From: Owenia fusiformis | Taxonomy: Eukaryota; Annelida; Polychaeta; Sabellida; Oweniidae | Assembly (NCBI GenBank): GCA_903813345.2 | Contig: CAIIXF020000012.1 | Location: 33,740,572 to 33,804,571, forward strand | DNA length: 64,000 bases | Direction of reading: 5' to 3' | Shown: piece after piece, positions 6,427-34,048 of the stretch | Position numbering within the stretch: the first letter of the stretch is position 1 | How the letters are laid out: every line of letters begins with the position of its first letter | Made by a program: the position numbers and the translations under genes | Notes under the pieces: generated by a model | What the model was told of the DNA's origin: nothing | The model's input: only the letters and a program-made list of their open reading frames with translations | The model's database searches: none

Positions 6427-6502
6427 ATGGCGTTCGATCACAGCGTCGTTTGGATGGGACTAGCATGTTTAACTCACGTGGCTTCGTCGTCAGCCTATTA
6501 CG
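6427..6502 (+). CDS. Gene 1 exon 1: signal peptide
   Basis: Encodes 25 residues from ATG, ending in phase 1 before GTATCG. It has a hydrophobic core (VVWMGLACL) and an Ala/Ser-rich cleavage region (ASSSA). It is conserved almost perfectly at 28245-28320, which supports this start. The ATG context is GAAGATGG. Confidence 0.8.
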
Positions 6503-9500
6503 GTATCGTTTTTTACAATACATTATAATATGTACTTATATGTTTTTAACTTCTGCAGTAAATGCAACTGTTTTAAAAGTGAATGCAATATATCAACAAA
6601 AAACTACCTACTTTGTAGGTGCTAAATAATAAAATATTTAGAGTATATATGAGAGAAATTGGTCATTTCGAACCTGTTGAAAAGTTTGTGGCTCTCGGCT
6701 ACACAGGAGAATTTACTTCCATGAGTACACACATAAATGTGGGGTTCCCCAAGAGGTGCGCGACAAGGTGACCTGGCATCAAATGTGCGACTAAATGCTA
6801 CTATCGAGAAGATAAAATAACGAATACGACAATAAGTTATTGCATGTGACAATTCCGAGCCTTCATCTCACTGAAGTATTTTGAAGTCAAAATAGGAATT
6901 TTTGTTTTGATACATGGATTCAGATGAACGTAACTTTATTCTGACAACTAATCAAAACTGAACAAAATTGATTGTACGTAACAGACAATTTATTGTTTTA
7001 CAATGTTTTGATTGGCTAAACGAATGAAACCAACAAATTATGACATGTAAAATGACAATTTTGAAATGTAAAATTTAAAGATCTAATAACAAAGGTTTTG
7101 CAAAAATAAATCAATGCAGTGTAAAACAAATGTATGTATAATGAAGAAATAAATATTTAATGAAAAAAATAGATATGTGTTTGTAATATTGGTATTAACT
7201 TAAGATTAAAAAGTGTCACCATCTCTTTCATTTTTCAACAAATATAGGCTCACGTGACATATGACGCGGGGCAGTCAATTTTGATCTATCGTAGACCATA
7301 TCAGTATCAAACTGCCGATATTTCAACCTCGTCTTGCGAGGCCATTTTTATTTGAAACATCTTGAATTTGGTGTCAAAATAAAGCTGGTCACGCCCACTT
7401 TCAGAGTTATCAATGAATCATTTACTACGACTACTATATTCATTTAGGAGGCGTGTAAAGTTAACCAATCAGAAAGACAATTGCTCCATATATGACAGTT
7501 CATTAACATATTCAGTGTTTACTATTGTTTTTCGCGTCATGACAACACGAGTAGTAACCAATCAAAATGCCGTATTTTATCACGTGAGTTCAGAGTGACA
7601 TGCACGACATGTAAGTTTAGTCTGAGCTGATCGCGATGTTGAACAATTTCTTCTCGGAATTTGTCCAGAGAAATCAGCGATTCTAAATTAAGGTAGGATC
7701 TCCCATTTCTTCCTGTACAAGTTTTAACTTATCTCTATCGAATCCTAAAGTTTTGGATGAAGATATGAAGCATACGTTTAAAAACGAAGCGATTAATTTG
7801 ACGATCTGATTTTGCAATTTGCAATGGCCAATTTACTGCAAGTCTGCGTGTATTTGACAAGAGATAGCGCCAAGTCTTGTATCCGAATGCTTGTTAAGCC
7901 ACTCAAAAACAAGATCCATATTTTCTAAATTTGATAACTTTGCAGAGAGCCCGTTTTCATAACCTGTTTTCCGCGTCTAAATTCAAACTGAGTAGGATTA
8001 AGCTATAGGATCGCTGGGATTCTCAGTCAATGGCAACGGGTCTTCATTCCAGAACGCACATTTTTTTAGTTGATTCTCCGTCATAGTACTTGTCTAAAGT
8101 CCATATCTGCTCTTTTACTGGCATACTTGGACATATTTCCCCTCCTTAAATTGTCCTCCTTAAATAACACCCTCTCGCCGATTTATATATAGCAATTTCC
8201 CAGAACCCGGGAGTCAGAATCGCTGATGTTTGCCATATTGAACATGTTGAAATATGTACTGTAATATCTGTAATACTAGGCATTGCCTGCTACGCGTACG
8301 GGTCACGTGACTAGCGCGATACAGGAAAAATGGGGAATTTCGAAACATCAATTTTTGGGCACTTTTATTGCAAATTTCAGGTATTTATAAGTGTTTGTGG
8401 TATAAAATATAATCCACAGACATAAATGAACATCCAAACTACATATTTTATTACGTTTTGGAGCCTTTTTTGCTTTTAAAATGACATCTTTAAAAGTGAC
8501 AAACACAACCTCCCTATCCACTCTTTGGGAGCCCTAGTAAATTAGTAATATGTACATGCAGCAGTGGTAGTGTACAGCTTATTATCACACTACGCTTTGT
8601 ATTCTAAAGCCTGTTATTTGTAATAACACTGTTCACTCAACGTATGTTTTGTGTGTGGGCAGTCAACGATAATCATTGTTTTATCCCGGTTATATGACCT
8701 CGGCAATTATAACAAAACCGTACTAAACGAAAAAACGCAAATAAGAAAAAGCTTTCACATACATAAAAAAATGAACTAGTCTAATCCGCCAGTATAAACT
8801 CTGTGCTATACGTAGCCGGGTCAGGCGCACACTGTCATGATTGAATTTATAAAATAGTTGCATTGAAAAAGGAGAAAAGATAAAAAAGACAATTTCTCAA
8901 ACTACAGTCTTCCCAGTTTTTCAAACTTTTTGAAAAACTTATTAATATCGGCTTTGAAATTCTAGCACAGAAAATTAAATACTAGAATAGTACTATATAT
9001 ACATCAATATGGTTTTCGGAAAAACGTCTCTACTTTAATGGCAATCTTAACTTTTGTTGAAAACATATGATAGCACTACTAGAGAGCAATGAATCTCCAC
9101 TTTGTATATCTAAAGCCTTTGACACCATTAGTCATAAAATTCTTCTAGATGAATTAAATCTTTATGGAATACAAGAGGCTGAACTTTTTTTTATCTCTTT
9201 AAATCCTATTTTTTTATTAAAATCAATGTAACATATATACAGGTTATAGTGGCTATGACCCCAAAGAGGGAGTATTAGGTGCAATCACTGTGTCATATGA
9301 CAATGTTAACTCTGATTTACAAAGTATATCATGAGGTGTACTCCAGGGTTCGGTCCTTGGGCAAACTTTATTCATATGTAAATGACATGTTTAAGGTCTC
9401 CGATGCTGTCAGATAAAGATTTAAAACCTCTTATAGAGAAGATCTTATGGATGATTGGTTAAAAGCCAATAAATTGTTAATATACTATTCTAAAACAAGA

Positions 9501-12500
9501 CTTATCTTGTCCAATAAACAAAAACGATAAACAACGAATTCTGTAATCGTATATTCAGCAAAACCTGTTAATTGACCGCCATTGGAATCGGCTAAAAGCG
9601 TTCTGATCAGGAAGTGTTCACAGTTTGAGTTTTCCGCATTCGCGAGATTCTGAATTTTGAAGAAATAGGAACACATCAATATTTAAAGTTCTATTGACCA
9701 TCTTTATGACATTCCAATAATTTGAAATCTGAGTTACATGAATTTATAAGTCATGTTAGAAAGACAAATTATTTTTAAGATCATTATAATGTTTTTCCCA
9801 AATTTTGGATATTATAAGAAAACAGCGATTAATATAAAATATTTGAGCAATTTTGTATGAAAACGTGATATTTAAGGAAAACTGTTCATGGGTTAATCTT
9901 TCACATCTGACTGTTCACTGTTCATGAGGTGTTCATGATCAAATTTCAAGTGTTTAGCATAGCAGCCAATGGAAGGAAATGGGTTGGAAAAAGTGTTCAG
10001 ATTGGGAGATTTTCAGATTAGTCCAGTGTTTTAAAATACAGGTTTTAGTGTAATACGCGATTATTTATTTATCTTGTTATAGTTCCAGGGAGCCTACATG
10101 AAGGCGATCGCTTAGAGTTCAGAATCGAAGGCACCAAATATATATTGCGACCATCCAACAGCCCATTGACCTGTATCACAAATGGAAAGAAGATATACGC
10201 GTGCGGTTTAACGGAATCAGAACAATCTTCTTTAAGAGCAAACAATCCCAACAGCTTTGCTTTCACCATCTCAAAGGTAAAAACATTGACCTTGTACGTA
10301 CATATCATAAGGGCAGCATCCGCTTTAAGAGCGAGCAATCCCAAGAGCTTTGCTTTCACCATCTCAGAGGTAATAAAATTGACCTTGGAAGTGCATATCA
10401 TTAGATCGTATGTGTTCATTAACTTCATTACTGCATTAACTTCATTACTGCATCATATGATAAATGGGTCCAAGCTTTCAAAAGACTCCCCTTCCCATCT
10501 TTTGTCAGGTAGAGTATCAGATACTACAGAGTGAGGCTGAAGACGTCCACATTTTAATTTCATTATCAAAAACTTCTGAAGAGGTCAGAAAAGTAAAATT
10601 TTGAAGGTTAAAGTAAGATATTGCTAATTTTCTGTTTTCAGATAACGGGTGGAACGAATCACTCTGCATTGCATTCTGGAGATGCAGTTTACATACGAGC
10701 CAAGCATGACGGTTTCTTTCTTGCTCATTGCGGCGAGTCCGGCCCGTGCTATAATTATCCTCACTCAGGGCCGATAATGATAGACCCCAAAGATTTTGAT
10801 CAGCATACCGATACTTATAAATGGCTGATATGGCAGTTCAACAAGACGACGTCACTTCATAATGAAGGTACATGGTGTCCAAAAAACAGGACCGTAGAAA
10901 AGTTAAATATATATTCTGCCTTGAAATTTCAGAATTATTCAGTTCATTCCATGTGAATTTTGTTGTGAAAGTTTGATGGTAATCTGTCTTTTGAATCAAA
11001 AACTACAGCACTTTACAAAACATGCTCCAAGTGGGCACCTCTCCTCTCTATGCACAATTGAATCGGCTGAACGAAGTGTCCAAAAACAGGACCGTAGAAA
11101 AGTTAGATATATATTCTGCCTTGAAATTTCAGAATTATTCAGTTCATTCCATGTGAATTTTGTTGTGAAAGTTTGATGGTAATCTGTCTTTTGAATCAAA
11201 AACTGCAGCACTTTACAAAACATGCTCCAAGTGGGCACCTCTCATCTCTATGCACAATTGAATCGGCTGAACGAAGTTGTTGATGACCCTCCTACACACA
11301 TTTCCTTTGAATGAACAACTTGATTTGAAGAACAGCTGCTACTGGGACTTACATCTTCCTGAAGAAGTGAAGCGTCTATTGCATTCTGAAAAATTCACTG
11401 TCTTGGTGGCAATACGCAAACATGGAATCATCGGTCCCTATTGATTCGAAGGTGACTGCGGACATGTTCACTTGGAGCATGTTTTGTTAAGAACTGTAGT
11501 TTTTGACTCACTAGTAGATAACCATCAATATTTCACAACAAAATACATATTAAATGAACTAAATAGTTCTGAAATTTCAAGGCAAAATATCCAAAGTTGA
11601 CCGAGTTATTTAACTTTTCTTCGGTCTTAAAAAAAGTAAATAAAAACTCCAGAGCGAAGTGAAGTGGTGGCAGCGATACCAACACGTGTAGGCCCGTAGC
11701 CAGGGGGAGGGGGGGGGGGGGGGGTCGATGGTCGAACCCCCTGGCCAATTTTTTTTTTCATTTTTCTGGCTAGGAACACAGACAGTTCAAGCCAGCACAG
11801 GCCTTTCATCGAGTTAGTATCACTCTAGTAATTATCTTCTCTGGTGTACTATATCTAGTTAGCATACGCTGGCTCCAGTCGCCGCAAGCTGGGATTGAAC
11901 CCAGGATCTTGGCATCAGTAGTCCAGAGTGCTAACCTTTACACCACAGAACCGAAAATCATGCAGTTTTTCACCATTCTGAGCACTTTTAAAGTGATTTT
12001 GGCCATTTTGGACCAAAACTGTCAAAAGTGAACCCGCTGGATTTTTTTTAAACAGTGACCCCCCCCCCCTTGGCAAATCCTGCTACGGGCCTGATGTGTG
12101 CACATTTTTTCTAGAAATGATGCAGTGAGCTTGAGGATATTCACCTTTGTGGATTTCGTTAGGTTTTGATAAATGATGCACACTAATTAACCCACTTCAG
12201 TAAGAATTGTCTTATTTCTTCAGGGACACCTGTATACCAAGGTGATTTGATTCAGTTTCAATCTATGTCGTCATCGAATGGATGGATTGATACATGTGGC
12301 GGTGTAACACTTGATGGATATGGCGGGCACGGAATTCGGGTCATAAATGATGAAAACAATGACAGAGCCGAATCTCTTGTACGTGGTAACAATCAGAGAC
12401 TCACAGCAGAAATCATTGATGGTATGATCTAATTGCTACCAGGCCAAACGTCAACTTTATTTGACTGTATCACTGAAGATTTTAATGTATTTTTATCCCG

Positions 12501-15500
12501 GATTGAAATAGCTTAATTCGCTTACAACCAATCAAATTACTTCGCGCCAAAAGGAAGTAGTGCGCACTCCATTATGATCTCCCCATGAAAAAAATTTTTC
12601 ATATGATTTTTCAAAATGAGCATACTAACGTGTCGCAAAAAGGTCGCGCACGCATTGTTACACATTGTCGCTTTTTAACACCACAGAATGTGACGTTTTT
12701 TGAGAAAAATGTACACATATGGAAATCCTTTCGTCCGCAACATTTGCCTCTATATCTCAAAATATTTAAGGCGAATAGCTCTGATATCGTATATGTAATA
12801 ACAATGGGATAGGAGCATCATAAAACACGAATCAATTGATATTTTAGGTGAAATAAATATACGTGTTGCTGTGCTGGAAAATAGGCGAATGGCGTAAATT
12901 AGCCCTATTTTAATGAATTTTGAAAACATTTCATCCTCCACTTTTCCACATACAACAGAAAACACATACTTTTGCGAACAAAATCAACTATTTATTAATA
13001 AACTATAGTTAAGAGCAAAATAATCATGTGTGATTTATTAAAAATTGATCTCGTATTTTTTGTTTAATGTACATCTTAAAAGTTTAAGGTAACAAAAAAT
13101 GAGCAAAAAGGGTGGCTGTCAACAGATTCTATTTTTCAAACTCTATGACGTCACAATATGGAAACTTACTAAAATTCATCCTTTGAAATAAAACTTCCAT
13201 CTACCTTTATCAAGACGAAAAATAAGTATAATAGTCATATATTGTTTGAGTTATGAGCGTTTAAAGACGAAAAATAATTCAAAATGTAACGTATCAACAG
13301 GGGATATTTGCCAGATGTTTTGGCAAAAAACTCTTTTTTAAAAAAGAACGCGCAAGAATCGTGAACGGAGTGTAGTTGATCTAAAAACCTCATCGAAACA
13401 GCTTTAAAATGGTATATAACTTTAATTAGAATATTATGATCTTAAAATCCGGGGAATCAAAGTTACATTCACGCGATACCCTTAAAAAACAAATGCGCCA
13501 CCTTTTTGCTACACGTCACTTGCTTTTATTATTTCATTTGTATGCAGACAAGTATCTTGTTGACCTATATTGAGCACTGTATTGATGTATGGGCCACTTA
13601 TTAGGGTCATAATTCAATCATGAAGTGTAGAGGCATAGATTCCAAACCAGGAAGTATTTTTGTGCCTGTCAAAATCCATTTGCATCCTACACATCCCTTC
13701 ATCTTATCCAAATATGTTATTAATTAATGAAACATAACAGTATAATCTTTGGATTTACAAATTTGTATGGCATTTCATAAGTGTAAAAGTTGCTTTTGAG
13801 CATTTTTCTATAGCCATTTTGTAAGAAAAAATTGATGAAAAAATGTATAATCTTTTAATTTGAAGTATGACCTGAATCGATTGCAAACTTCATATTTGCA
13901 CATCTGATGTGATATACCATTTGTGTCATATTGTGAAATTATTTAATTTGCAATCGATTCAGGTCATAGTGTATTTTGGTATTTTTGTGAAAATCAATAG
14001 AAACCAATGGCCTTCATTGGAATCTGATGGTATCCATATGTTAAGTCAATGGAGTACATCCAATGTCAAGTCAATACACCCTTGCTGATCTTAATGACCT
14101 CAACCTCAGCCCACGTGGTTCCAAATGCTTAAATATTTTCCAAAGTATTATGTGACATAGTATTCTTTATGTTACACCTAAACATGATTCATTTTGTTCA
14201 TGGGGAAATCATAATGGAGAGTGCACTAGATCCTTTCTTTCTTTTGGCGGGCTCTTCTCTCTTACCTCAGTACTGAAACAAATCTCTAGGTGACCAAACC
14301 TTTAATTTTTACAGGTAAAGTAATTTGGAATTTTTGCTCTTTCCCTTGTATCAGAATTGATAATGTTATTGAATTGTAATTTACTTACTTCATCGAATAC
14401 TAAAGTTATTTAAGAATGTATAAACACGCGGTAGTATCTCTTCGGGACGTATCGAAACCACTCCGTCCCGAAAAAACCGTTAATTTGAATTTAAAACCTA
14501 CCCAGTGTTTGAAAATCAAGGATTGTGAGTCTCACACTTCACCGTTTTTCTTCAAACTTGTTCCGTACAAAGCTTCACAGAAATACCTTTCAGTCGATAC
14601 ATTGTTTTCGTGTACAAAGTACCTCGTTTTAGCGGCGTTTTAGTCCCCAGCTGCGAGATAAAGCAAATTTTCATAACTTTCAACTGTAAGTCAAGTTATC
14701 TCGCCAGTCTTCTACCCATTCTCGCTCATAATTTCAGAATGGACTCCCATTACAACCTTCCATCGCTACGTTTTGATTTTTGGGCATCAAACGCAGCAGT
14801 TTCTAAATCATCCACACATCTCTTAAAATTTGACTAGTACGTCCCGTCACCTTCCACTACGCCCCGCCGAGTCTATGACTACAAACGTGGAGTTGTATTC
14901 TAAAACATTTTGTTCATCGTTGTGTAATTTTACATAGGTTTGCCTTGGTCGATTCTTAACACCAGTCTTAAGTTTAGCATACATACGGAGTATAACTATA
15001 ACTGATTGCATGAAATTGATAATTTAAATGTTTGTGAAGATGTTGCTTTTTAACTTTAATTATATGTAATTGTCCTGTATTTGATTTTGTGAGGAAACCA
15101 AGTGTCTGGTTTGAAACACAATAAAATCTGGAATCTTGTTTTGCTAATGTTCAACATAAATAATTTATAAATAATCGGCCGAGGGCAGATTAGAGCGGAT
15201 CAATCAATGGTGTACAAAAAGTAACATGTAAAAGAAAAAACGCTATACTATTGTGATGACTATTGCTCTCGACAGAAAGCTTCAATTTTCATTGCATCAT
15301 ATTTATTTATTTACCTGTATTTAAACAGAATGGTTTTTATTCATATGCAGTTACTACTTAAATGATAATAACACTATTTGCTTAATTCTATGAAGAATGT
15401 TTTTATAGTTTTTAATATTCTATCGTCCAGCGTATTCTCTCCGAATTATTGATCTGGCTATGAATTTTATGCACTAAACATAAACATGTAATACGTATCA

Positions 15501-18500
15501 GAATGATACTATACAATATTATATCACAAAGAACATTTTGTCATGACTATACATATTTTCTAAGTTCATCATCATGCCACAGTGTAAATGTACTGTATGA
15601 CATCCAAGGCAAAGTACTAACAAAGCCGGTGTGAAAGAAATTATGGTCCCCTGGGGATTATGGTCCCCTTTCCTAACGGCCCTTTCTGGCCCTGACATTC
15701 GAAATTCCCATGTAAACCCATGAGATTTGATATGTTTGTCGCATGTCATACGACAGAATATCCATCAATCTGAGTACTAGCAAAAAGTACAAGTTAGGTA
15801 CAGTAGACAGCTGAATTTGCTATCTTTATTTAACAAAAAGTTGATACGTTTCTTCAGGTTCAACAAAGTTATAGGTTAGGGTTGTCCAAATCTGCAAAAT
15901 TTTCCAAAAATCTATCATCTGATAGATTCTAGTTACAAATTGACTCTTGGTACAAATATTTCCACTCTAGACCCCTGGGAAATTTTGCCACGCGTCTCAC
16001 TTGAAGTTTTGATAATTTTGACAAATATGCCGTTTTCATAAATGGTTTATAACTCAAAATTAAACTGTTGTATTTCAGGAATATGTATTTTTTCTTCATC
16101 ATTTATGATTTTCAATAACCCTACAGGCACCACTTTTTTAGCTAAATCCATCGGGAAACTTTGTCACGCTTAATTTCAAAATAACGGAGATGTTATCAAA
16201 ATTGAGCAATATTGGCACAAAAACGTTTCTAGATTCATATAAAGAATGCATCATCATACAACACTAATTAGTATATAAACAACATCTACTGACTTGGTCT
16301 GATAATGTAATATAAAGATTTTAACTGTTGTGTGTCAACCTTTCTTCTGTATGATTCCATTGGATTACATTATGAAACGTGTACCATATAAAATGATATG
16401 CATGTTTCTAACGTTATGCTGAAAATAATATAATTGACATCACCCATCCTTTCGCATTTTAACATTTTTTCAAGGATAGGGCACTTTAAACGTTTCTTAA
16501 AAATATTTTCAATTGTTCAGTAATTAAAATCTTTATATTGCAATATTGGGAAATCTAAATTTTAGGGAGATTTTGGACCACCCTATTATAGGTATATTGA
16601 AAATGGACAAGAATGGGTAAATCTTAAAACACAATCCGATTGGTATTTAGAATCGACAATGGCAACCTACAAACGGACACATCGATGGACAAATTGTTTT
16701 AGAATGCAACTCTACGTGTATAGTGATAGCCTCGGCGGGGCGTAGTGGAAGATGACGGGACGTACTAGTCAAATTTTAAGAGATGTGTGGATGATTTAGA
16801 AACTGCTGCGTTTGATGCCCAAAAATCAAGACGTAGCGATGGAAGGTTGTAATGGGATTCCATTCTGAAATTATGGGCGAGAATGGGTAAAAGACTGGCG
16901 AGATAACTTGACTTACAGTTGAAAGTTATGAAAATTTGCTTTATCTCACAGCTGGGGACCAAAACGCCGCTAAAACGAGGTACTTTGTACACGAAAACAA
17001 TGTATCGACTGAAAGGTATTTCTGTGAAGCTTTGTACGGAACAAGTTTGAAGAAAAACGGTGAAGTGTGAGACTCACAATCCTTGATTTTCAAACACTGG
17101 GGTAGGTTTTAAATTCAAATTAACGGTTTTTCGGGACGGAGTGGTTTCGATACGTCCCGAAGAGATACTACCGCGTGATAAAGATGTATTTTAATTTGCT
17201 TAAAAAATGTATGTCAAACCTTAATTTGAAGTTTCTTTTGTATCGAAAGTAAAAATTTGAGTTGTCAATTTCATGTAAAGCACCCGTATTCGTTGGTGTT
17301 CGAGCTTCAATTCAACCACCTCAGCTAAAATGGCTGAAGATACGTCCAAAGGTTCTATTTAATGAAAATTTAAAAGAGAAAACCTGGTGTGGGTGTGGTG
17401 GGTGGGTGATTTTATTGATCTGTGAAAATAAAAGGTTTGGTCACCTAGAGCCCGCCAAAAGAAAGAATTTTTTGGCGCGAAGTAATTTGATTGGTTGTAA
17501 GCGAATCAAGCTATTTTAATCCGGTGTAAAACAAATTATTGTCCCCTGGGGATTATGGTCCCCTTTCTTAAAGGCCCTTACTGGCCCTGATTGTGGATAC
17601 GATAATAAGGGAAAGAGTTGTTTTTAGGTCACCATATAAATCAATGGAGTGTAGGAAAATAATTTGATAGGACCTCCTACCCTACACCGGGATAAAAATA
17701 GCCAGAATTCAGGTCACAACCTCATAACATAATTTTAGTAGTGAATGACACTACTTACAACATGAGTACCTAACAATTAATTTCAAAATCTTTATTATTT
17801 GACATTTCATGGCTCATCCAGATAAAACAAATCAGACATTAAGTAGAAATTGAAGTACAAAATTAAAATAACAACATAAGATACGAAACTTAAAATAACC
17901 AAAAATAAAATAAGTCGTATTCTAATAACACAATAAAATAAATATCAATTTGGCTCTAATAAGTATAATAATTTTCATTTTCTTCATCAAGAGAATAACA
18001 AAAACATCTTGAACAGTATGAAGAATTAGGAATCCATGAATATGAAAATGTTAAGCTAAGACGTCAATGTTACAAAAATGAAGCACATGGGAAAGTCGAC
18101 GGGTTTTGAATTCAACGATGATTTTTGTTTTTAGAACAAAAACATTCTAGATCTCTCCATTTGATTAAATGCCAAAATTAAATCACTCAGTTTTCCGTGT
18201 AAAATATAATTAAATAGTCAACTTCCCGATAAGTCAATAGGCCTAATTGTTTATTGTTCAACTAAATTTTACTTGAAAACGTATTTTTAACGCAGGAGAA
18301 TGTAGCGTCTCAGTTTCTTCACGGGTATCATGTGGACCAGTGGGGATCGAAGAATGTCATCGCAGAGGTTGTTGCTATGATAGCCTCAATGGTGTTGTCC
18401 CAGCATGTTACTATGGTGAGTATCTTCACTGAGGCCAAAAAGAGGAAATACAATGTGTTACTTCTAAGATAATGAAAAGGTTGTCATTCATTCTGTGTGG

Positions 18501-19134
18501 TTATCTAATACCATGATGGTAATAAATACAACGAATCTTTTTTTATAACAGACTAATTCACATGGAAACGATTTCATGCTTGACTGTACGCAAGTAGTAG
18601 TCCATCTTCGTTATTTGGGGTTTGCCCCGGGGGTTATCTTTTGTTCTCTGCAAAACAGCTGTATATATTTATTTTACAGCGCCGAGTGGGCCAATCCATC
18701 GACGATTACCGCGGATCACGCTAAAGTGCAGTAACACCGTAAGCACACTCAAATACCACGGAATAGAACTCACCGATGGCGATATGCAGACTTGCTTTCC
18801 TCTGGAGATGATGACCGCATCTTCTGTTTGGTTCGACTTAAATGGATACAGCTCCGATAACTTCACGCTTGAGAGCTTCATGCCTTTACGATCTGCTGGA
18901 CTTTGCAAGCATTTCTACCCCATGGTCGGAGCTACGGCTTCCCAGGATGGGGATGACTTCAAGGAATGCGCTAGACTTGATGAAAGTTTCAACAATGGAT
19001 TGTCCAAGTGTGCATACGTATGTGCGTGCAGTTATGGGAACTGTAACTCATTCACAGTGAACTTTCTGCATATTCAAGCTGATAACATAAAGGTTAAGGA
19101 ACATAAAATTTGCGAAATGGTGATTAAACTTTAA
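6427..19134 (+). CDS. Secreted beta-trefoil-like / P-trefoil / Cys-rich protein, gene 1 (six exons, 422 aa)
   Basis: Exons: 6427-6502, 10083-10276, 10642-10867, 12224-12421, 18296-18415 and 18680-19134. All introns are GT-AG and every phase joins, giving 1269 nt (422 residues plus stop). Residues 1-22 or so form a signal peptide. Residues 26-231 are three exon-sized pseudo-repeats, each opening with a Gly-Asp turn (EGDRLEF, SGDAVYI, QGDLIQF), two of them with a downstream Cys-Gly; this looks like a three-lobed beta-trefoil. Residues 233-271 are a P-type trefoil domain with all six cysteines, including CGPVGI and GCCYDS. Residues 272-422 hold nine cysteines and a weak resemblance to coagulation factor 5/8-like modules (DGDMQTCF, VWFDL). 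Inference: an extracellular carbohydrate-binding or mucus-associated protein. The family was not recognised. Gene 2 has the same structure. Confidence 0.85.
6503..10082 (+). other. Gene 1 intron 1
   Basis: The part from about 6604 to 9085 has no counterpart in gene 2 and no recognisable gene. It includes CACGTGA-containing sequences at about 7252 and 7580 that could mark an old insertion. From 9090 on it matches gene 2 intron 1 and carries a LINE remnant. Confidence 0.6.
9098..9530 (+). pseudogene. Decayed LINE reverse transcriptase fragment
   Basis: Broken frames give SKAFDTISHKILLDELNLYG, then a damaged GSVLG-type block, then DDWLKANKLLIYYSKTRL. These are recognisable non-LTR reverse transcriptase segments in the right order, with stops, frameshifts and a missing middle. 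The same relic occurs at 28685-29110, so it predates the duplication. Confidence 0.75.
10083..10276 (+). CDS. Gene 1 exon 2: first beta-trefoil-like repeat
   Basis: 194 nt from TTATAG to GTAAAA, in phase 1 and out in phase 0. Encodes VPGSLHEGDRLEFRIEG and ends NSFAFTISK. It has two cysteines (TCITNG, YACG); the second is Tyr in gene 2. Confidence 0.83.
10277..10369 (+). other. Duplicated exon-2 end with a second in-frame 5' splice site
   Basis: The end of exon 2 plus the intron start is repeated in tandem here, ending CTCAGAG before GTAATAAAA at 10370. The 93 nt between the first and second donors is open and in frame. Use of the second donor would add 31 residues, the last part repeating SFAFTIS. 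Gene 2 has a single donor, and its GTAATAAAA matches the downstream donor here better than the upstream one (GTAAAAAC). Confidence 0.75.
10642..10867 (+). CDS. Gene 1 exon 3: second beta-trefoil-like repeat
   Basis: 226 nt from TTTTCAG to GTACAT, phase 0 in and phase 1 out. Encodes SGDAVYIRAKHDGFFLAHCG and ends YKWLIWQFNKTTSLHNE. Confidence 0.85.
10868..11640 (+). mobile_element. Decayed mariner-like element with an internal duplication, in intron 3
   Basis: It begins TGTCCAAAAAACAGGACCG at about 10876. A segment of about 200 bp is repeated starting at about 11076. It ends near 11630 with the inverted counterpart of the left end. It is homologous to the better preserved element at 34286-35243, with a relic of the transposase first-Asp region around 11400-11460. 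In gene 2 the same position keeps only about 35 bp of the left end. Confidence 0.75.
11690..12093. mobile_element. MITE with GGCCCGTAGCC ends
   Basis: It starts GGCCCGTAGCCAGGGGG and ends with the inverted GGCTACGGGCC-like end. The middle contains the family's CACCATTCTGAGCACTT segment and runs of G or C. Other copies lie at 30396-30570, 50796-50996 and 63884-64000. It is interrupted by a SINE at 11761-11952. Confidence 0.8.
11761..11952 (-). mobile_element. tRNA-derived SINE inserted in the MITE
   Basis: On the - strand it begins GGTTCTGTGGTGTAAAGG and continues with tRNA-Gln-like sequence. A B-box (GGTTCAATCCC) is present, but the acceptor stem does not close, so it is not a functional tRNA. 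About 110 bp of unrelated body follows. It splits the MITE sequence between TTTTT and AAAATCATGCAG. Confidence 0.7.
12224..12421 (+). CDS. Gene 1 exon 4: third beta-trefoil-like repeat
   Basis: 198 nt from TTCTTCAG to GTATGA, phase 1 in and out. Encodes QGDLIQFQSMSSSNGWIDTC followed by a Gly-rich turn (GGVTLDGYGGHGIRV). Confidence 0.85.
13868..13968. repeat. Perfect 20-bp inverted repeat with about 60-bp loop
   Basis: TGACCTGAATCGATTGCAAA is matched by its exact inverse about 60 bp later. The gene 2 copy (about 31525-31621) differs by one base in the right arm. Confidence 0.85.
14425..17177. mobile_element. 2.75-kb element with about 540-bp terminal inverted repeats and 5-bp target duplication
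   Basis: Termini are CACGCGGTAGTATCTC and its exact inverse. The arms run about 14425-14965 and 16635-17177. It is flanked by ATAAA at 14420-14424 and 17178-17182. The paralogous intron in gene 2 (near 32065) has the uninterrupted GTATAAAGATG, the empty site. The interior shows no intact transposase. Both arms contain a 75-codon open frame in mirror image, a consequence of the repeat. The CAC terminus with 5-bp duplication recalls Transib or RAG-like elements, but no catalytic domain supports this. Confidence 0.88.
15629..15705 (+). repeat. Partial copy of the GGTGTGAAAGAAATTATGG MITE
   Basis: It matches the first about 70 bp of the MITE at 32403-32577 and lies inside the 2.75-kb element, so it arrived independently of the intron-4 copies. 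Confidence 0.7.
17522..17695 (+). mobile_element. MITE nested in the right arm of the intron-4 element
   Basis: It runs from GGTGTAAAACAAATTATTG to CCCTACACC and interrupts the right arm of the larger element between ATTTTAATCCG and GGGATAAAAATAGC. It is present at the same place in gene 2 (32403-32577), so it is older than the duplication. Confidence 0.78.
17711..18295 (+). other. Rest of gene 1 intron 4
   Basis: Matches gene 2 intron 4 closely (32594-33196). No gene or element recognised. Confidence 0.6.
18296..18415 (+). CDS. Gene 1 exon 5: P-type trefoil domain
   Basis: 120 nt from ACGCAG to GTGAGT, phase 1 in and out; one whole trefoil module. Cysteines occur in ECSV, SCGPVG, ECHRRG, GCCYDS and ACYY, matching the six-cysteine trefoil pattern with the usual Arg before the second Cys. 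A symmetric phase 1-1 exon of this kind suits exon shuffling. Confidence 0.9.
18680..19134 (+). CDS. Gene 1 exon 6: Cys-rich C-terminal domain and stop
   Basis: 455 nt from TTTTACAG to TAA. Encodes 150 residues after a split Ala codon. Nine cysteines are present, with a cluster KCAYVCACSYGNC and a final KICEM. DGDMQTCFP and SVWFDL suggest a factor 5/8-like fold, weakly. Confidence 0.87.
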
Positions 19135-20520: not shown

Positions 20521-20587
20521 TATTTTACTAATTTTGATTATTCTATTTTTGACAATTATCATAATTCTAGACGTTTTTAGTGTCGTA

Positions 20588-21317: not shown

Positions 21318-21319
21318 TA

Positions 21320-25129: not shown

Positions 25130-25970
25130 GTTCCATTGTGCCTTGTAATTTATATTGTGTCCTGCACATTACTATTGTGCCTTGCATATTTAAATTGTGC
25201 CTTGCATATTAATAGTGTACCTTGCATATTTATATTGTGTCTTGTATATTAATAGTGTGCCTTGCATATTTATATTGTGCCATGCATATTTATTTTGTGC
25301 CTTGCATATTTAAACGTTCTTGCATATTTGTATTGTGCCTTGCATATTTATAGTGTGCCTTGCATATTTATAGTGTTCCTTGCATATTTATAGTGTACCT
25401 TGCATATTTGTATTGTGTCTTGCATATTTATAGTGTGTCTTGCATATTTATATTGTGCCTTGCATATTAATATTGTGCTATGCATATTTATTTTGTGCCT
25501 TGCATATTTATAACGTGCCTTGCATATTTATATTGTGCCTCGTATATTTATAGTGTGCCTTGCATATTTATAGTGTTCCTTGCATATTTATAGTGTGCCT
25601 TGCATATTTGTATTGTGTCTTGCATATTTATATTGTGTCGTGGATATTTATAGTGTGTCTCGCATATTCATATTGTGCCTTCCATATTTATATTTTGTCT
25701 TGCATATTCATATTGTGCCTTGCATATTTATATTGTGCCTTGCATATTTATATTGTGCCTTGCATATTTGTATTGTGCCTTGCATATTTGTATTGTGCGT
25801 TACATATTTATATTGTGCCTTGCATATTTATATTGTGCCTTGCATATTTGTATTGTGCCTTGCATATTAATATTGTACCTTGCATATTAATATTGTGCTA
25901 TGCATTTTTGTAATGTGCCTTGCATATTTATAGTGTGCCTTGCATATCTATAGTGTGCCTTGCATATTAT
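25130..25970. repeat. 20-bp minisatellite, about 40 units
   Basis: Unit TTGTGCCTTGCATATTTATA, with T/A, G/A and C/T variants. Repeat-derived open frames of 71-117 codons on the + strand read as a 20-residue period and are not genes. Copy 1 has only four or five units at the matching place. Confidence 0.95.
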
Positions 25971-26339
25971 GTCTCTTATTTGAAAATAATGTTATTTTTC
26001 TTTTTGGAATAAGTATGTCATCCAATCAAAATCATATTTTCTCCATATGACTTTTTCCCATATGACATAAACAGTTTCAGTTGTTATCTTATTTTAACAC
26101 AATATCTGTGCATTGACCTTATTTAATGCAAGTTATTGTATGGCCCAAAGCAATGTAATTATTTCAGATGTATTGATGTAAATGAAGAATACCACTGTAT
26201 ATGAAATGATGACACTTGATTTTTTATTAAAAAAACCAAGGAATAATAGTAATTGGGAAACTTAGCAAGTTGATATTTTCAAAGAGAAATTATGGGGGTT
26301 ACATGGACACGTTATCATGCTATTGTACACAGTCAATCA

Positions 26340-27490
26340 CCAATGGTACCGTATGATACCATACTCTTAATGTACCGTATGGTACCATACTCTGAATGTA
26401 ACGTATGGTACCATACTCTTATTGTACCGTATGGTACCATACTCTGAATGTACCGTATGGTACCATACTCTTAATGTACCGTATGGTACCATAATTTAAT
26501 GAACTGTATGGTACCATACTCTTAATGTACCATATGATACCATACCCTTTATGTACCGTATGGTACCATACTCTTAATGCACCGTATGGTACGCCATACT
26601 CTTAATGTACCGTATGGTACCATAATTTAATGAACTGTATGGTAACATACTCTTAATGTACCATATGATCCATACCCTTTATGTACCGTATGGTACCATA
26701 CTCTTAATGTACCGTATGGTACCATAGTCTTAATGTACCGTATGATACCATAATTTAATGTACCGTATGGTACCACAGTTTAATGCACTGTATGGTACCA
26801 TAATCTTAATGTACTGTATGGTACCATTCTCTTAATGTACCGTATGGTACCATACTTTTAATGTACCGTATGGTACCATACTCTTAATGTACCGTATGGT
26901 ACCATACTCTGAATGTACCGTATGGTACCATACTCTTAATATACCGTATGGTACCATCCTCTTATTGTACCATATGGTACCATACTCTTAATGTACCGTA
27001 TGATACCATACCCTTGATGTACCGTATGGTACCACACTCTTAATGTACCGTATGGTACCATACTCTTAATTTACCGTATGGTACCATACACTTAATGTAC
27101 CGTATGGTACCATATTCTTAATGTACCGTATGGTACCATACTCTTAATGCACCGTATGGTACGCCATACTCTTAATGTACCGTATGGTACGGCATACTCC
27201 TAATGTACCGTATGGTACCATACTCTTAATGTACCGTATGGTACCACACTCTTAATGTACCGTATGGTACCATACTCTTAATGCACCGTATGGTACGGCA
27301 TACTCTTAATGTACCGTATGGTACGGCATACTCTTAATGTACCGTATGGTACCATACTATTAATGTACCGTATGGTACCATACTCTTTATGTACCGTATG
27401 GTACCATACTCTTTATGTACCGTATGGTACATGTACCTTACTCTTTATGTACCGTATGGTACCATACTCTTAATGTACCATACGGTACCG
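26340..27490. repeat. 26-bp palindromic satellite, about 40 units
   Basis: Unit built around GTATGGTACCATAC, a perfect 14-bp palindrome, plus a spacer like TCTTAATGTACC. A minority of units carry GTACGGCATAC or GTACGCCATAC, which break the palindrome and occur in clusters (27160-27330). Copy 1 has one or two units. Confidence 0.95.
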
Positions 27491-27554
27491 TGATTTCGGA
27501 TTGTGGGTGTAAGTGAGCACGCGCCGATTGAATCTATTATTGATCCAGTTGTGG

Positions 27555-27913
27555 CATCATGATAAACCATGACATCTCAAATCTTCTCAGCCCTGGGATG
27601 CCATGATATAATGAGCTTGATTTGGCCATCCAGGAGAGCCCAAAATTGAGGATTTTTGAGATCCTTCATCCCAGCTCATATTTCATTTAATTGGGGTCAT
27701 TAAACTTGTGTACACGTGCCTGTGCTAATATCTACTGTTAAATACAATGCCTTTTATGTAATGTAATGACATTAGGTAAATGATTACATGATAACAATCA
27801 CACTTATTGACAGTTGTAACTCTTCCCATCTGATGTGCTCAGACCACAGAACATGTCTCATAATATCAGAGCATGTTTCAGGTGAAACAGAAAGATGTTA
27901 TGAGTATCAGAAT
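27555..27913. mobile_element. 359-bp non-autonomous DNA transposon with 9-bp target duplication
   Basis: It begins CATCATGATA and ends TATCAGAATG, imperfect inverted termini of about 22 bp with one indel. It is flanked by CAGTTGTGG at 27546-27554 and 27914-27922. Copy 1 shows the empty site TCCAGTTGTGGGATTT near 6097. A second copy with its own 9-bp duplication lies at 55019-55378. A 9-bp duplication suits Mutator-like or Merlin-like elements; the superfamily is not proven. Confidence 0.92.
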
Positions 27914-28244
27914 GCAGTTGTGGGATTTGGGTAGATAAACTCTTAAAGTGCTTGGATTCATAGATTGTTTTGTCAAACATATTAACAAAACACAATGCAA
28001 CTGTCATTGTTTTTCGCTAGGCAATCCCATATAAATATTTCATATGTTGATAGAAATAATAGCATTTCTATGGCGGCAATTGTTTTTCATAATTTCTCGT
28101 AAATATTTAATTTGTTGGTTGATAAAGTGCATTCTCTAGAAAGGTGCGAAGCCTGGAAGACAATCGCGTCTTTGATAATGTGATGATGATTGAAAACATT
28201 TAAAGCCGTAAGTTCTACTCTCCCAACGTAAGAAATAAAGGAAG

Positions 28245-28320
28245 ATGGCGTTCGATCACAGCGTCGTTTGGATGGGACTAGCATGTATAACTCACGTGGC
28301 ATCGTCGTCAGCCTATTACG
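28245..28320 (+). CDS. Gene 2 exon 1: signal peptide
   Basis: 76 nt, ATG to the GTATCG donor; it differs from gene 1 by one Leu to Ile change. Confidence 0.8.
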
Positions 28321-31300
28321 GTATCGGTTTTTAGAATATACATTATAATATGTACTTTTATGTTTTTAACTTCTGCAGTAAATGCAACTGTTTTAAAAGT
28401 GAATGCAATATATCAACAAAAAATTTCAAAAGTGTGTGCATTAATTTAGGACAATGCCCAAACTACTGGTTTGTTCACTTAAGATTTAGTCATGATTTTA
28501 TTTATATAGCCTAATGCCTGGGTCGCATATGCACATATCCATCGGCCGGCGCCCGGCGGATTGAGTGTTTTGTTCAATACAATATTGTATTCAATTTTGA
28601 ACAACATACTCAATCAGCCGGGCGCTGTAGTGAAAATCGGAGCAAATGTGACCAAGGCATTAGTTATAAAATAATCCTTCACTTTGCGTATCTAACGCCT
28701 TTGACACCATTAGTCATAAAATTCCTCTCGATAAATTAAATCGTTCATGGAATACAAGGGGCTGGCCTTTTTTATCTCTTTAAATTCTATTTTTTAAATC
28801 CATGTAACATATATACAGGTTATAGTGGCTATGACCCCAAGAGGGAGTATTAGGTGAAATCACTGTGTCATGTAACAATGTTGACTCTGATTTACAAAGT
28901 ATATCATGAGGTGTACCCCAGGGTTCGGTCCTTGGGCCAACTTTATTCATATTATATGTAACTGACATATTTAAGGTCTCTGATACTGTCAGATAAAGAT
29001 TTAAAACCTCTTATAGAGAAGATCTTATAGAAGATTGGTTAAAAGCCAATGAATTGTTAATAAACTATTCTAAAACCAGACTTAACTTGTTCAATAAACA
29101 AAAACAATAAACAACGAATTCTGTAATCGTATATTCAGCAAAACCTGTTAATTGACCGCCATTGGAATTGGCTAAAAGCGTTCTGATCAGGAAGTCTTCA
29201 CAGTTTGAGTTTTCTGCATTCGAGAGATTCTGAATTTTCAAGAAATAGGAACACATCAATATTTTAAGTTCTATTGACCTTCTTTATAGCATTCCAATAA
29301 TTTGAAATCTGATTTTCATAATTTTTGTAGTCATGTTAGAAAGACAAATTATTTTTGAGATCATTTAATGTTTTTCCCAAATTTTGGATATTATAAGAAA
29401 ACAGGGATTAATATAAAATATTTGAGCAATTTTGTATGAAAATGTGATATTTTATGAAAACTGTTCATGGGTTAATCTTTCACATCTGACTGTTCACTGT
29501 TCATGAGGTGTTCATGATCAAATTTCAAGTGTTTAGCATAGCAGTCAATGGAAGGAAAATGGGATTGGAGAAAGTGTTCAGATTGGAAGATTTTCAGATT
29601 AGCCCGGTGTTTTAAAATACAAGTTTTAGTGTAATACGCGATTTCATTTATTTATCTTGTTATAGTTCCAGGGAGCCTACACGAAGGAGATCGATTGGAG
29701 TTCAGAATCGAACGCACCAAATATATATTGCGACCATCGAACAGCCCATTGACCTGTATCACAAATGGAAAGTGGATACACGCGTACGGTTTGGCGGAAT
29801 CAGAAGAATCTACTTTAAGAGCAAACAATCCCGACAGCTTTGCTTTCACCATCTCAAAGGTAATAAAATTGACCTTGGACGTGCATATCATTAGATCGTG
29901 TGTGTCAGTTCATTAACTTCATATTACTACATCATATGATAATTGGGTCCAAGCTTTCAAAAGACTCCCCCTCCTATCTTTTGTCAGTTACAGTAGAGTA
30001 TCAAATACTACAGAGTGAGCTTGAAGACGTCCACATTTTTATTTCATTATCAAAAACTTCTAAAGAGGTCAGAAAAGTAAAATTTTGAAGGTTAAAGTTA
30101 AGATATTGCAAATTATCTGATTTCAGATAACGGGTGGTACCAATCACTCTGCATTGCATTCTGGAGACGCAGTTTACATACGAGCAAAACATGACGGGTT
30201 CTTTCTTGCTCATTGCGGCGGGTTCGGCCCGTGCTTTGAATATCCTGACTCAGGGGCGATAATGATAGACCCCAAAGATTTTGATCAGCATACCGATACA
30301 TATAAATGGCTGATATGGCAGTTCAACAAGACGACGTCAATTCATAATGAAGGTACATGGTGTCCAAAAAGCAGCACCGTAGAAAAGTTAAATAACTCCC
30401 CCCCCCCTGGCCAGAATTTCTTCCAAAATCATGGAGATTTTCACCATTCTGAGCACTTATTAAGTGATTTTGGCAATTTTTGGACCAAAATTGTCAAAAG
30501 TGACCCCCCTGGATATTTTTAAAAAGTGACCCCCCCCTCCCCTTGGCAAATCTTGGCTACGGGCCTGATGTGTGCACATTTTTTCTAGAAATGATGCAGT
30601 GAGCTTGAGGATATTCACCTTTGTGGATTTTGTTAGGTTTTGATAAATGATGCACACTAATTAACCCACTCCAGTAAGAATTGTCTTATTTCTTCAGGGA
30701 CACCTATATACCAAGGTGATTTGATTCAGTTTCAATCTATGTCGTCATCGAATGGATGGATTGATACATGTGGCGGTGTAACACTTGATGGATATGGCGG
30801 GCACGGAATTCGGGTCATAAATGATGATAACAATGACAAGGCGGAATCTCTTGTACGTGGTAACAATCAGAGACTCGCAGCAGAAATCATTGATGGTATG
30901 ATCTAATTGCTACCAGGCCAAACGTCAACTTTATTTGACTGTTTCACTGGAACTTGATTATAATGTTCTTGTATTAAGTGTCATATACACTTAAATATGT
31001 CCCAAATTTTCCTAAATCGCCCGAACTGCAAATTGAATAAGAATTCTGGCTATTTTTATCCCCGATTGAAATAGCTTAATTCATTACTTCGCGCCAAAAA
31101 GGAAGTAGTGCGCTCTCCATTATGATCTCCCCATGAAAAAATTGTTCATCTGATTTTTCAAAATGAGTATACTGCTTTTATTATTACATTTATATGCAGA
31201 CTAGTATCTTGTTGACCTATATTGAGCACTGTATTGATGTATGGGCCATTTATTAGGGTCATAATTCAATCATGAAGTGTAGAGGCATAGATTCCAAACC

Positions 31301-34048
31301 AGGAAGTATTTTTGTGCCTGTCAAAATCCATTTGCATCCTACACATCCCTACATCTTATCCAAATAATGTTATTAAATAATGAAACATAACAGTATAATC
31401 TTTGGATTTACAAAGTTGTATGGCATTTCATAAGTGTAAAAGTTGCTTTTGAAGCATTTTTCTATAGCCATTTTGTAAGAAAAAATTGATGAAAAAATGT
31501 ATAATCTTTTAATTTGAAGTATGACCTGAATCGATTGCAAACTTCATATTTGCACATCTGATGTGATATACCATTTGTGTCATATTGTGAAATTATTTAA
31601 TTTGCATTCGATTCAGGTCATAGTGTATTTTGGGTATTTTTGTGAAAATCAATAGAAACCAATGGCCTCCATTGGAATCTGATGGTATCCATATGTTAAG
31701 TCAATGGAGTACATCCAATGCCAAGTCAATACACCCTTGCAGAACTTAATGACCTCAACCTCAGCCCATGTGGTTCCAAATGCTTAAATATTTTCCAAAG
31801 TATTATGTGACATAGTATTATTTATGTTGCACCTAAACATGATTCATTTTGTTCATGGGGAAATCATAATGGAGAGTGCACTAGATCCTTTCTTTCTTTT
31901 GGCGGGCTCTTCTCTCTAATACCTCAGTACTGAAACAAATCTCTATGTGACCAAACCTTTAATTTTTACAGGTAAAGTAATTTGGAATTTTTGCTCTTTC
32001 CCTTGTATCAGAATTGATAATGTTATCCACTTACTTCATCGAAACTAAAGTTATTTAAGAATGTATAAAGATGTATTTTAATTTGCTTCAAAAATGTATG
32101 TCAAACCTTTGAAGTTTCTCTTGTATCGAAAGTAAAAATTTGAGTTGTCAATTTCATGTAAAGCACCCGTATTCGTTGGTGTTCGAGCTTCAATTCAACC
32201 ACCTCAGCTGAAATGGCTGAAGATACGTCTAAAGGTTATTTTTAATGAAAATTTAAAAGAGAAAACCTGGTGTGGGTGTGGTGGGTGGGTGATTTTATTG
32301 ATCTGTGAAAATAAAAGGTTTGGTCACCTAGAGCCCGCCAAAAGAAAGAATTTTTTGGCGCGAAGTAATTTGATTGGTTGTAAGCGAATCAAGCTATTTT
32401 AATCCGGTGTGAAAGAAATTATGGTCCCCTAGGGATTATGGTCCCCTTTCTTAAAGGCCCTTACTGGCCCTGATTGTGGATATGATAATAAGGGAAAGAG
32501 TTGTATTTAGGTCACCATATAAATCAATGGAGTGTAGGAAGATAATTTAATAGGACCTCGTACCCTACACCGGGATAAAAATAGCCAGAATTCAGGTCAC
32601 AACCTCATAACATAATTTTAGTAGTGAATGACACTACTTACAACATGAGTACCAAACAATTAATTTCAAAATCTTTATTATTTGACATTTCATGGCTCAT
32701 CCAGATAAAACAAATCAGACATTAAGTAGAAATTGAAGTACAAAATTAAAATAACAACATAAGAAACGAAACTTAAATAACCAAAAATAAAATAACTCTT
32801 ATTCTAATAGCACAATAAAATAAATATCAATTTGGCGCTAATAAGTATAGGAATTTTCATTTTCTTCATCAAGAGAATAACAAAAACATCTTGAGCAGTA
32901 TGAAGAATTAGGAATCCATGAATATGAAAATGTTAAGCTAAGACGTCAATGTTACAAAAATGAAGCACATGGGAAAATTGACGGGTTTTCAATTTAACGA
33001 TGATTTTTGTTTTCAGAACAAAAAATTCTTGATCTCTCCATTCGATTAAATGCCAAAATTAAATCCCTCCATTTTAACCTCGCCCTGTGGTCTCAGTTTT
33101 CCGTGTAGAATATAACAGGCAGCTTCCCGATGGGTCAATAGGCCTAATTGTTTATTGTCCAACTGAGTATTACTTGAAAATGTATTTTGAACGCAGGAGA
33201 ATGCAGCGTTCCAGTTTCTTCACGGGTATCATGTGGACCAGTGGGGATAGAAGAATGTCATCGCAGAGGTTGTTGCTACGATAGCCTCGATGGTGTTGTT
33301 CCAGCCTGTTACTATGGTGAGTATCTTCACTGAGGCCAAAAAGAGGAAATACAATGTGTTACTTCTAAGATAATGCAAAGGTTGTCATTCATTCTGTGTG
33401 GTTATCTCATACCATGCAGGTATTAAAGACCACGAATCTTTGTTTATATAACAGACTAATTCACATGGAAACGTTTTCATGCTTGATTGTACGCACATAG
33501 TAGTCTTCTCTTCGTTATTTGGGGGTTGCCTCGGAGGTTATCTTTTGTTTAAGGTCTAAAAAACAGCTACGGGTATGTATGTTTATTTTACAGCGCCGAG
33601 TGGGCCAATCCATCGGCGATTACCGCGGATCACGCTCAAGTGCAGCAACACCGTAAGCACCCTTAAGTACCACGGAATGGAACTCACCGATGGCGATATG
33701 CAGACTTGCTTTCCTCTGGAGATGATGATCGCTTCTTCTGTTTGGTTCGACTTAACTGGATATAGCTCCGATAATTTCACACTTGAGATCTTCATGCCTT
33801 TACGATCTGCTGGACTTTGCAAGCACTTCTACCCCATGGTCGGAGCTACGGCTTCCCAGGATGGTGATAACTTCAAGGAATGCGCCAGACTTGATGAAAG
33901 TTTCAACAATGGATTGTCCAAATGCGCATACGTATGCACTTGCAGTTATGGGAACTGTAACTCATTCACAGTGAACTTTCTGCATATTCAAGCTGATAAC
34001 ATTAAGGTTAAGGAACATAAAATTTGCGAAATGGTGATTAAACTGTAA
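28245..34048 (+). CDS. Secreted beta-trefoil-like / P-trefoil / Cys-rich protein, gene 2 (six exons, 422 aa)
   Basis: Exons: 28245-28320, 29666-29859, 30127-30352, 30698-30895, 33197-33316 and 33594-34048. Lengths and phases are identical to gene 1, all introns are GT-AG and the frame is open throughout (422 residues). Domain order is as in gene 1: signal peptide, three beta-trefoil-like repeats, P-type trefoil with all six cysteines, nine-cysteine C-terminal domain. About 28 residues differ from gene 1. Several lie in two short segments, KWIHAYGLAESEEST (exon 2) and GGFGPCFEYPDSGA (exon 3), and one replaces a Cys with Tyr. Introns are much shorter. Its upstream region holds about 2 kb of tandem repeats not found at gene 1, so regulation may differ. 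Confidence 0.85.
28512..28662. mobile_element. 151-bp MITE in intron 1
   Basis: Ends TAATGCCTGGGTCGCAT and the inverse TGTGACCAAGGCATTA. GC-rich inner arms around GGATTGAGT and ACTCAATCAGCCGGGCGC make a long hairpin. Absent from gene 1. Confidence 0.8.
28685..29110 (+). pseudogene. Decayed LINE reverse transcriptase fragment (copy 2)
   Basis: Same relic as at 9098-9530, with independent further damage. Confidence 0.7.
29666..29859 (+). CDS. Gene 2 exon 2: first beta-trefoil-like repeat
   Basis: 194 nt, TTATAG to GTAATA. Only one cysteine (TCITNG) remains; eight residues differ from gene 1. There is no tandem donor duplication here. Confidence 0.83.
30127..30352 (+). CDS. Gene 2 exon 3: second beta-trefoil-like repeat
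   Basis: 226 nt, TTTCAG to GTACAT; seven residues differ from gene 1, six of them within a 14-residue stretch after HCG. Confidence 0.85.
30360..30395 (+). mobile_element. Stub of a mariner-like left end
   Basis: TGTCCAAAAAGCAGCACCGT and a few more bases match the left end of the intron-3 element of gene 1; the rest has been deleted. Confidence 0.7.
30396..30570. mobile_element. MITE with GGCCCGTAGCC ends, left-truncated
   Basis: It matches the MITE at 11690-12093 without the SINE. The left end is lost at the join with the mariner stub; the right end GGCTACGGGCC is present. Confidence 0.78.
30698..30895 (+). CDS. Gene 2 exon 4: third beta-trefoil-like repeat
   Basis: 198 nt, TTCTTCAG to GTATGA; four conservative differences from gene 1. 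Confidence 0.85.
31041..32593. mobile_element. TIR element in intron 4 (copy 2, without the 2.75-kb insertion)
   Basis: Left end GAATTCTGGCTATTTTTATC, right end its inverse at 32574-32593; the arms continue inward as the AGCTTAATTC / GAATCAAGCT blocks. A MITE interrupts the right arm. No transposase found. Confidence 0.75.
32403..32577 (+). mobile_element. MITE nested in the right arm
   Basis: GGTGTGAAAGAAATTATGG to CCCTACACC, the same insertion as at 17522-17695. An inverted copy lies at 38822-39012. Confidence 0.78.
33197..33316 (+). CDS. Gene 2 exon 5: P-type trefoil domain
   Basis: 120 nt, ACGCAG to GTGAGT; six cysteines conserved, two substitutions relative to gene 1 (Ser to Pro, Asn to Asp). 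Confidence 0.9.
33594..34048 (+). CDS. Gene 2 exon 6: Cys-rich C-terminal domain and stop
   Basis: 455 nt ending in TAA; all nine cysteines are conserved, six substitutions relative to gene 1. Confidence 0.87.

Follow-up and report, generated by a model that had tools for sequence, protein, structure and literature searches.

Neighbouring six-exon genes of Owenia fusiformis encode putatively secreted mosaic proteins built around a P-type trefoil module

The two genes described here, copies A and B, lie in a stretch of 64,000 nucleotides from the annelid Owenia fusiformis (GCA_903813345.2, contig CAIIXF020000012.1, positions 33,740,572 to 33,804,571 of the forward strand), referred to below as the window. 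Copy A occupies positions 6427–19134 and copy B positions 28245–34048, both on the plus strand, and each encodes a 422-residue protein in which a trefoil module, the only known part, stands between two domains that appear to be undescribed within Pfam, the PDB and this genome. An original prediction, made from the DNA letters alone, had proposed paired six-exon genes with identical exon lengths and phases, and the spliced models bear this out. Both copies have exons of 76, 194, 226, 198, 120 and 455 nt and intron phases of 1, 0, 1, 1 and 1, with GT-AG borders at all 10 introns; each spliced coding sequence (CDS) measures 1269 nt without an internal stop, and in-frame stops precede the ATG in both. 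The exons are as follows.

6427–6502, plus strand: copy A exon 1, putative signal peptide, residues 1–25, ending in phase 1; ATG preceded by in-frame stops, GT donor, length of 76 nt shared with B
10083–10276, plus strand: copy A exon 2, repeat 1 of the N-terminal domain, residues 26–90; AG/GT borders, 194 nt as in B
10277–10369, plus strand: copy A, without counterpart in B, end of exon 2 repeated in tandem and bringing another donor in frame; TRF repeat 10230–10401, period 93, open translation followed by GT
10642–10867, plus strand: copy A exon 3, repeat 2 of the N-terminal domain, residues 91–165; AG/GT borders, 226 nt as in B
12224–12421, plus strand: copy A exon 4, repeat 3 of the N-terminal domain, residues 166–231, symmetrical 1-1; AG/GT borders, 198 nt as in B
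18296–18415, plus strand: copy A exon 5, P-type trefoil module, symmetrical 1-1, 120 nt; PF00088, 42.5 bits, C12:33758872-33758988
18680–19134, plus strand: copy A exon 6, nine-cysteine C-terminal domain, residues 272–422, and stop; 96% identical to B
28245–28320, plus strand: copy B exon 1, putative signal peptide; same structure as in A
29666–29859, plus strand: copy B exon 2, repeat 1 of the N-terminal domain, holding the replacement hot spot at residues 62–75; gene model
30127–30352, plus strand: copy B exon 3, repeat 2 of the N-terminal domain, holding the replacement hot spot at residues 122–134; gene model
30698–30895, plus strand: copy B exon 4, repeat 3 of the N-terminal domain; gene model
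33197–33316, plus strand: copy B exon 5, P-type trefoil module with Ser243 and Ala268; PF00088, 43.8 bits, C12:33773773-33773889
33594–34048, plus strand: copy B exon 6, nine-cysteine C-terminal domain and stop; no Pfam match listed at threshold 10

Since the exon lengths are equal, the two proteins align without gaps: 394 of the 422 residues are identical, leaving 28 amino-acid and 71 nucleotide differences. The introns differ widely in length (3580, 365, 1356, 5874 and 264 nt in A; 1345, 267, 345, 2301 and 277 nt in B), so the kept exons and borders reflect more than recency. Alignment gave near-colinear homology between approximately 5845–19147 and 26213–34061, with weaker pieces outside that are partly repeats, and the copies look like the product of a tandem duplication. 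Residues 6–16 form a hydrophobic stretch, and an N-terminal signal peptide is plausible in both copies. All borders between the putative signal peptide, exons 2–4, the trefoil module and the C-terminal domain are phase 1, which bounds the block of exons 2–4, exon 4 alone and exon 5. Such borders typically mark extracellular modules that have been shuffled. Most probably, the product is secreted and serves either recognition or a matrix.

Purifying selection is evident for the whole gene and for its C-terminal domain, but not for the N-terminal domain taken alone. In this comparison of A with B, which has no outgroup and measures a constraint indivisible between the copies, the Nei–Gojobori ratio of replacement to silent rates (dN/dS, or omega) is 0.20 for the whole gene (dS 0.155, dN 0.031; 0.166 and 0.031 with Biopython NG86). 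An omega of about 0.5 or more is expected if one copy drifted neutrally after duplication, and with a value of 0.5, as few as 30 replacements in 71 changes would have P = 0.0004. The C-terminal domain stands at 0.08 (P = 0.00006 against 0.5), the trefoil module at 0.10 and residues 26–231 at 0.40. The last figure would suit a pair of which one or both copies are decaying, as would two peculiarities of copy A: the duplicated exon-2 stretch beside its donor and a transposon-like insertion in intron 4.

14425–17177, no strand assigned: copy A intron 4, insertion between inverted repeats; repeat search, alignment break 14424/17178 against 32069/32065

This insertion measures 2.75 kb, its 501-nt inverted repeats are 94% complementary, and copy B has the empty site. 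Against decay stand the intact frames and splice sites, the equal exon lengths and the whole-gene ratio, and we consider it very improbable. The original prediction had argued from the intact frames that both copies are functional, and the overall dN/dS agrees with it, residues 26–231 alone failing to do so.

Exon 5 encodes a true P-type trefoil module, as had been predicted. In copy B, PF00088 scores 39.4 bits over residues 234–271 (cut-off 21), and exon 5 of both copies was found in a search of the whole genome (498.3 Mb in 525 contigs). PDB searches with the whole protein and with the module returned only trefoil-bearing proteins, the nearest to the module being porcine spasmolytic polypeptide (expectation value, E, of 2.4e-8) and TFF3 (about 1e-6). 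With such neighbours, the pair might be a trefoil-factor-like mucin lectin whose P-type module binds mucin glycans and whose other domains add valency. According to excerpts of PMC7221086, Asp20 and Trp47 of TFF3 are the sole side chains touching the mucin disaccharide, Asn replaces Asp in TFF1 and TFF2, and the other contacts between trefoil factors and sugar run to the backbone. In the mucin assay described there, the Trp mutants were inactive, the TFF3 Asp mutant nearly so, and the TFF1 Asn mutant reduced.

Aligned to TFF3, both copies carry Ser243 and Ala268 at the Asp20 and Trp47 positions named in those excerpts. This comparison concerns the side-chain contacts, backbone contacts being reported as well. 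The loop between Cys2 and Cys3 is shorter by two residues than that of trefoil factors. The genome holds 42 other trefoil modules, 30 of which were parsed by a six-cysteine pattern, with 12 unparsed; among the parsed modules 24 keep both Asp/Asn and Trp, two keep one and four have neither, and a single one shares the loop length of the pair. As many as 14 of the 24 site-keeping modules are near-identical and belong to one array, outside which 10 of 16 keep the site. Most parsed modules thus keep the sugar contacts, and their loss is common to both copies without being unique to them. Judged by the residues compared, the pair is not a trefoil-factor lectin, and we regard the mucin-lectin explanation as improbable. 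The mucus, digestive or lectin role that the original prediction had drawn from the module is weakened, because both sugar-contact side chains cited from that source are replaced in A and B.

The array in question, at C6:30547853-30551820, consists of 14 near-identical P-type modules spaced at approximately 296 bp, all with Asp/Asn and Trp, and its product is possibly a highly multivalent mucin cross-linker. Flanks were fetched for two of the four modules with neither contact residue (C4:12816500-12826400 and C10:32403000-32412900). These loci were considered as distant paralogues of the pair and rejected, the best E values with the N- and C-terminal domains being 0.5 and 0.63. In both flanks, cysteine-rich modules that resemble sushi domains to the eye recur within long frames.

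Exon 6 encodes the nine-cysteine domain that had been foreseen, with cysteines counted at residues 288, 310, 347, 368, 382, 386, 388, 393 and 416. No Pfam match was listed for this 151-residue domain in either copy at a threshold of 10, a setting at which matches above about 0.1 are mostly filtered out, and a PDB profile search gave none. Within this genome the domain was found only at these two loci at E ≤ 1 (three candidates scored); like the corresponding N-terminal search, this one used a single sequence and may miss distant paralogues. A genome-wide scan with a C-terminal motif pattern gave two matches, both of them the pair, with one forward and two reverse matches in a reversed control. 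An AlphaFold model built from the two-copy alignment was unusable (predicted local distance difference test score, pLDDT, 39.6; predicted template modelling score, pTM, 0.36). Foldseek returned 1453 matches to it at E ≤ 10, none at E ≤ 0.001 and the best at 0.024, and the result was discarded as meaningless; the 50 matches listed had mixed folds, and those at the top were mostly starch-binding, adaptin-ear, major histocompatibility complex and cytokine-receptor-like chains. The original prediction had proposed profile searches and structure prediction of residues 26–231 and 272–422: the trefoil module alone found a match, and the model of residues 272–422 is the one just described.

A possible likeness of the C-terminal domain to F5/8 C or F-type lectins (a DGDxxTC motif and ICE) was also rejected; the genome-wide motif scan gave it no support either. 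Neither PF00754 nor PF22633 matched at threshold 10, and comparison with the frames of 16 F5/8 loci gave best E values of 0.28 (blastp) and 0.38 (phmmer), that is, no similarity. The domain lies outside the PF22633 matches of the genome, which number at least 147 (from 150 scored of 311 candidates) and form clusters on contigs C8, C235, C481, C338 and C48.

No Pfam family spans the whole of copy B, in agreement with the claim that this domain order has no named family, within the scope of Pfam, the PDB and this genome. The next match after the trefoil module was DUF7229 (E 0.27 with the whole protein and 0.12 with the N-terminal domain), far under the cut-off, and a domain-wise scan added one chance match to MazE (E 0.17). 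The N-terminal domain was also found in this genome at these two loci only at E ≤ 1 (four candidates scored). Among 26 IMG/VR and 88 GTDB stretches holding a peptide pattern, tblastn found no relative of it; each scan relied on a pair of seven-residue patterns, taken from two sequences that are nearly identical, with which only close relatives are findable. A literature search found no paper combining Owenia and trefoil in the collection covered. The ambulacrarian or cephalochordate lineage suggested by the homologue search that had been proposed is unlikely because the genome contains erythrocruorin-linker matches over the cut-off, a family known only from annelids. Three of these matches lie within 15 kb on contig C6, one with an internal stop.

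Our leading explanation, held tentatively, is that A and B are functional tandem paralogues for a secreted, disulfide-rich mosaic with ligand recognition by its N-terminal domain, put together by class 1-1 exon shuffling. The order would be signal peptide, N-terminal domain (exons 2–4, probably a large beta-trefoil), P-type trefoil and nine-cysteine domain. The N-terminal domain would recognise a ligand outside the cell, probably a glycan, with the loops that come after the conserved cysteines in repeats 1 and 2. Because A and B have diverged in these loops, their preferred ligands probably differ. The P-type trefoil, its sugar contacts lost, may act as a rigid disulfide spacer, and the strongly conserved C-terminal domain may retain the protein, or oligomerise it, in mucus, in a cuticle or tube, or in body fluid. 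The recognition role in this proposal now rests on the clustered N-terminal replacements and not on the trefoil module.

Residues 62–75 and 122–134 hold six each of the 28 replaced residues, and at the nucleotide level these hot spots contain 14 replacement changes to one silent, against 16 to 40 in the rest of the gene (Fisher p = 7e-6). In 5000 shuffles, 12 replaced residues never fell in two windows of 14 or two of 16, and did so 19 times in two of 20; 11 fell in two windows of 13 once. Each hot spot comes after a cysteine of its repeat (C56 and C120), which suggests that they are corresponding loops of repeats 1 and 2, and positive selection is suggested in them. For the domain as a whole, a beta-trefoil fold of residues 26–231 seems reasonably probable to us. 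The three beta-trefoil-like repeats of the original prediction gained a shared motif, [LI]xxGDxhxh, near the start of exons 2, 3 and 4 (residues 30, 100 and 169), defined after it had been seen. Excerpts of PMC3531485 offer a lead only: the repeat ends of Hydra PPOD peptides are reminiscent of LRANNPDSFAFTI in repeat 1.

A number of results weigh against this reading. Pairwise alignments of the repeats, each set against 3000 shuffles, are weak (p = 0.043 for repeats 1 and 2, 0.011 for 1 and 3, and 0.23 for 2 and 3), and they disagree on the loop correspondence of the hot spots. The predicted beta-trefoil fold found no support in profile searches, where nothing credible matched: Pfam gave none for residues 26–231 (the domain of B and exons 2–4 of both copies, threshold 10), and PDB profile searches gave one chance match with the N-terminal domain (E 1.3) and one with the exon repeats (E 0.57). 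The C-terminal model could not be used. Taken alone, residues 26–231 are indistinguishable from an omega of 0.5 (P = 0.36), and the constraint on the trefoil module is not significant (P = 0.06). The hot-spot windows were chosen after the fact, and the single best window, with p = 0.008 at length 13, reaches only 0.09 at length 20. Replacement in the hot spots (14 of 61 sites) is not significantly above the silent rate (1 of 20; p = 0.10), and relaxed constraint there is possible.

Several of these points would suit a structural component of matrix or mucus, such as a tube, cuticle or egg-coat scaffold, that works without specific glycan recognition and whose hot spots are tolerant surface loops. 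The replaced sugar contacts of both trefoil modules and the hot-spot rate just given fit such a role, and so do the nine conserved cysteines and the low dN/dS of the C-terminal domain. It predicts a general tolerance, however, and the changes are more local than that: within residues 26–231 the hot spots stand at 14 to 1 and the remainder of the same domain at 7 to 14 (p = 0.0004). We treat the scaffold as a possible but doubtful alternative.

A defence protein, that is, a secreted immune lectin or agglutinin diversified under microbial pressure, would be a special case of the recognition explanation, and we think it unlikely. The tandem duplication and the clustered radical replacements in the N-terminal domain are in its favour, as is the existence of chimeric beta-trefoil lectins in lophotrochozoans reported in excerpts of PMC10744619 and PMC8878817; against it, just two copies were found in the genome by single-sequence searches.

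In its fullest form, the glycan-recognition explanation would make the pair a new secreted recognition family, possibly of one annelid lineage, that combines beta-trefoil-like and nine-cysteine domains with a site-less trefoil and whose copies diverge through two matching loops; we put this forward as a speculative possibility. If true, it would enrich the invertebrate secretome by a domain architecture and by two extracellular domains not described before, and would present a trefoil module whose reuse dispenses with the sugar-binding site. The locus would also amount to an experiment set up by nature: two adjacent copies that differ mainly in a pair of candidate binding loops, and whose ligand specificity can be compared.

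Some further features of the locus deserve mention. If copy A were spliced at the duplicated exon 2 donor, 31 codons would be added in frame, without a stop, and an alternative splice form is possible. Silent divergence between the exons of A and B (0.155 overall and 0.22 in exons 5 and 6) exceeds the mismatch in aligned intron stretches (2–8%), and CpG positions hold 15 of the 71 coding differences while making up 143 of the 1269 positions of the CDS; gene conversion in the introns or CpG mutability could lie behind the excess of exon over intron divergence. At positions 26346–27489 a partly palindromic unit of 26 bp is repeated approximately 44 times, the array ending about 755 bp upstream of the copy B ATG, and a 20-bp repeat array lies at 25135–25968. 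Elsewhere in the window are a TLC-domain match at 1214–1675 (32.5 bits, cut-off 24.6), a reverse transcriptase fragment on the minus strand at 39386–40339 and a cadherin match at 48525–49508 (28.4 bits, just below the cut-off of 28.8).

Among known systems, invertebrate beta-trefoil lectins (mytilectins, R-type lectins and Hydra PPOD) resemble the pair in the proposed threefold repeat and the predicted secretion. Chimeric architectures occur among such lectins of lophotrochozoans (excerpts of PMC10744619 and PMC8878817). Mytilectins, set beside the pair by a description of their layout and not by a profile, have a beta-trefoil usually joined to an aerolysin-like C-terminal domain (excerpts of PMC10744619). 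Hydra PPOD, a secreted glycan-binding coat protein, has two tandem beta-trefoils, each of three repeats of about 40 residues ending in WExF (excerpts of PMC3531485); compared by that description, the pair differs in having one candidate domain with repeats of 65–75 residues and without WExF. Unlike R-type lectins and fascin, it has no Ricin_B_lectin or Fascin match listed in Pfam (whole copy B at threshold 1; N-terminal domain and exons 2–4 at threshold 10). F-type and F5/8 C lectins differ from it in the C-terminal domain, which shows neither their Pfam match nor sequence similarity to them. Zona pellucida (ZP) proteins of the ZP1/ZP4 type carry a trefoil module directly before a cysteine-rich C-terminal domain, as the pair does; unlike in ZP proteins, this domain is only 151 residues long and has no ZP match listed in either copy (threshold 10). 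Trefoil factors are small secreted proteins of one or two trefoil modules. With them and with spasmolytic polypeptide the pair shares the six-cysteine P-type module of PF00088; unlike theirs, as far as the excerpted contacts go, its module has Ser in place of Asp/Asn before Cys2 and Ala in place of Trp before Cys6, and it sits singly inside a 422-residue mosaic with two further domains.

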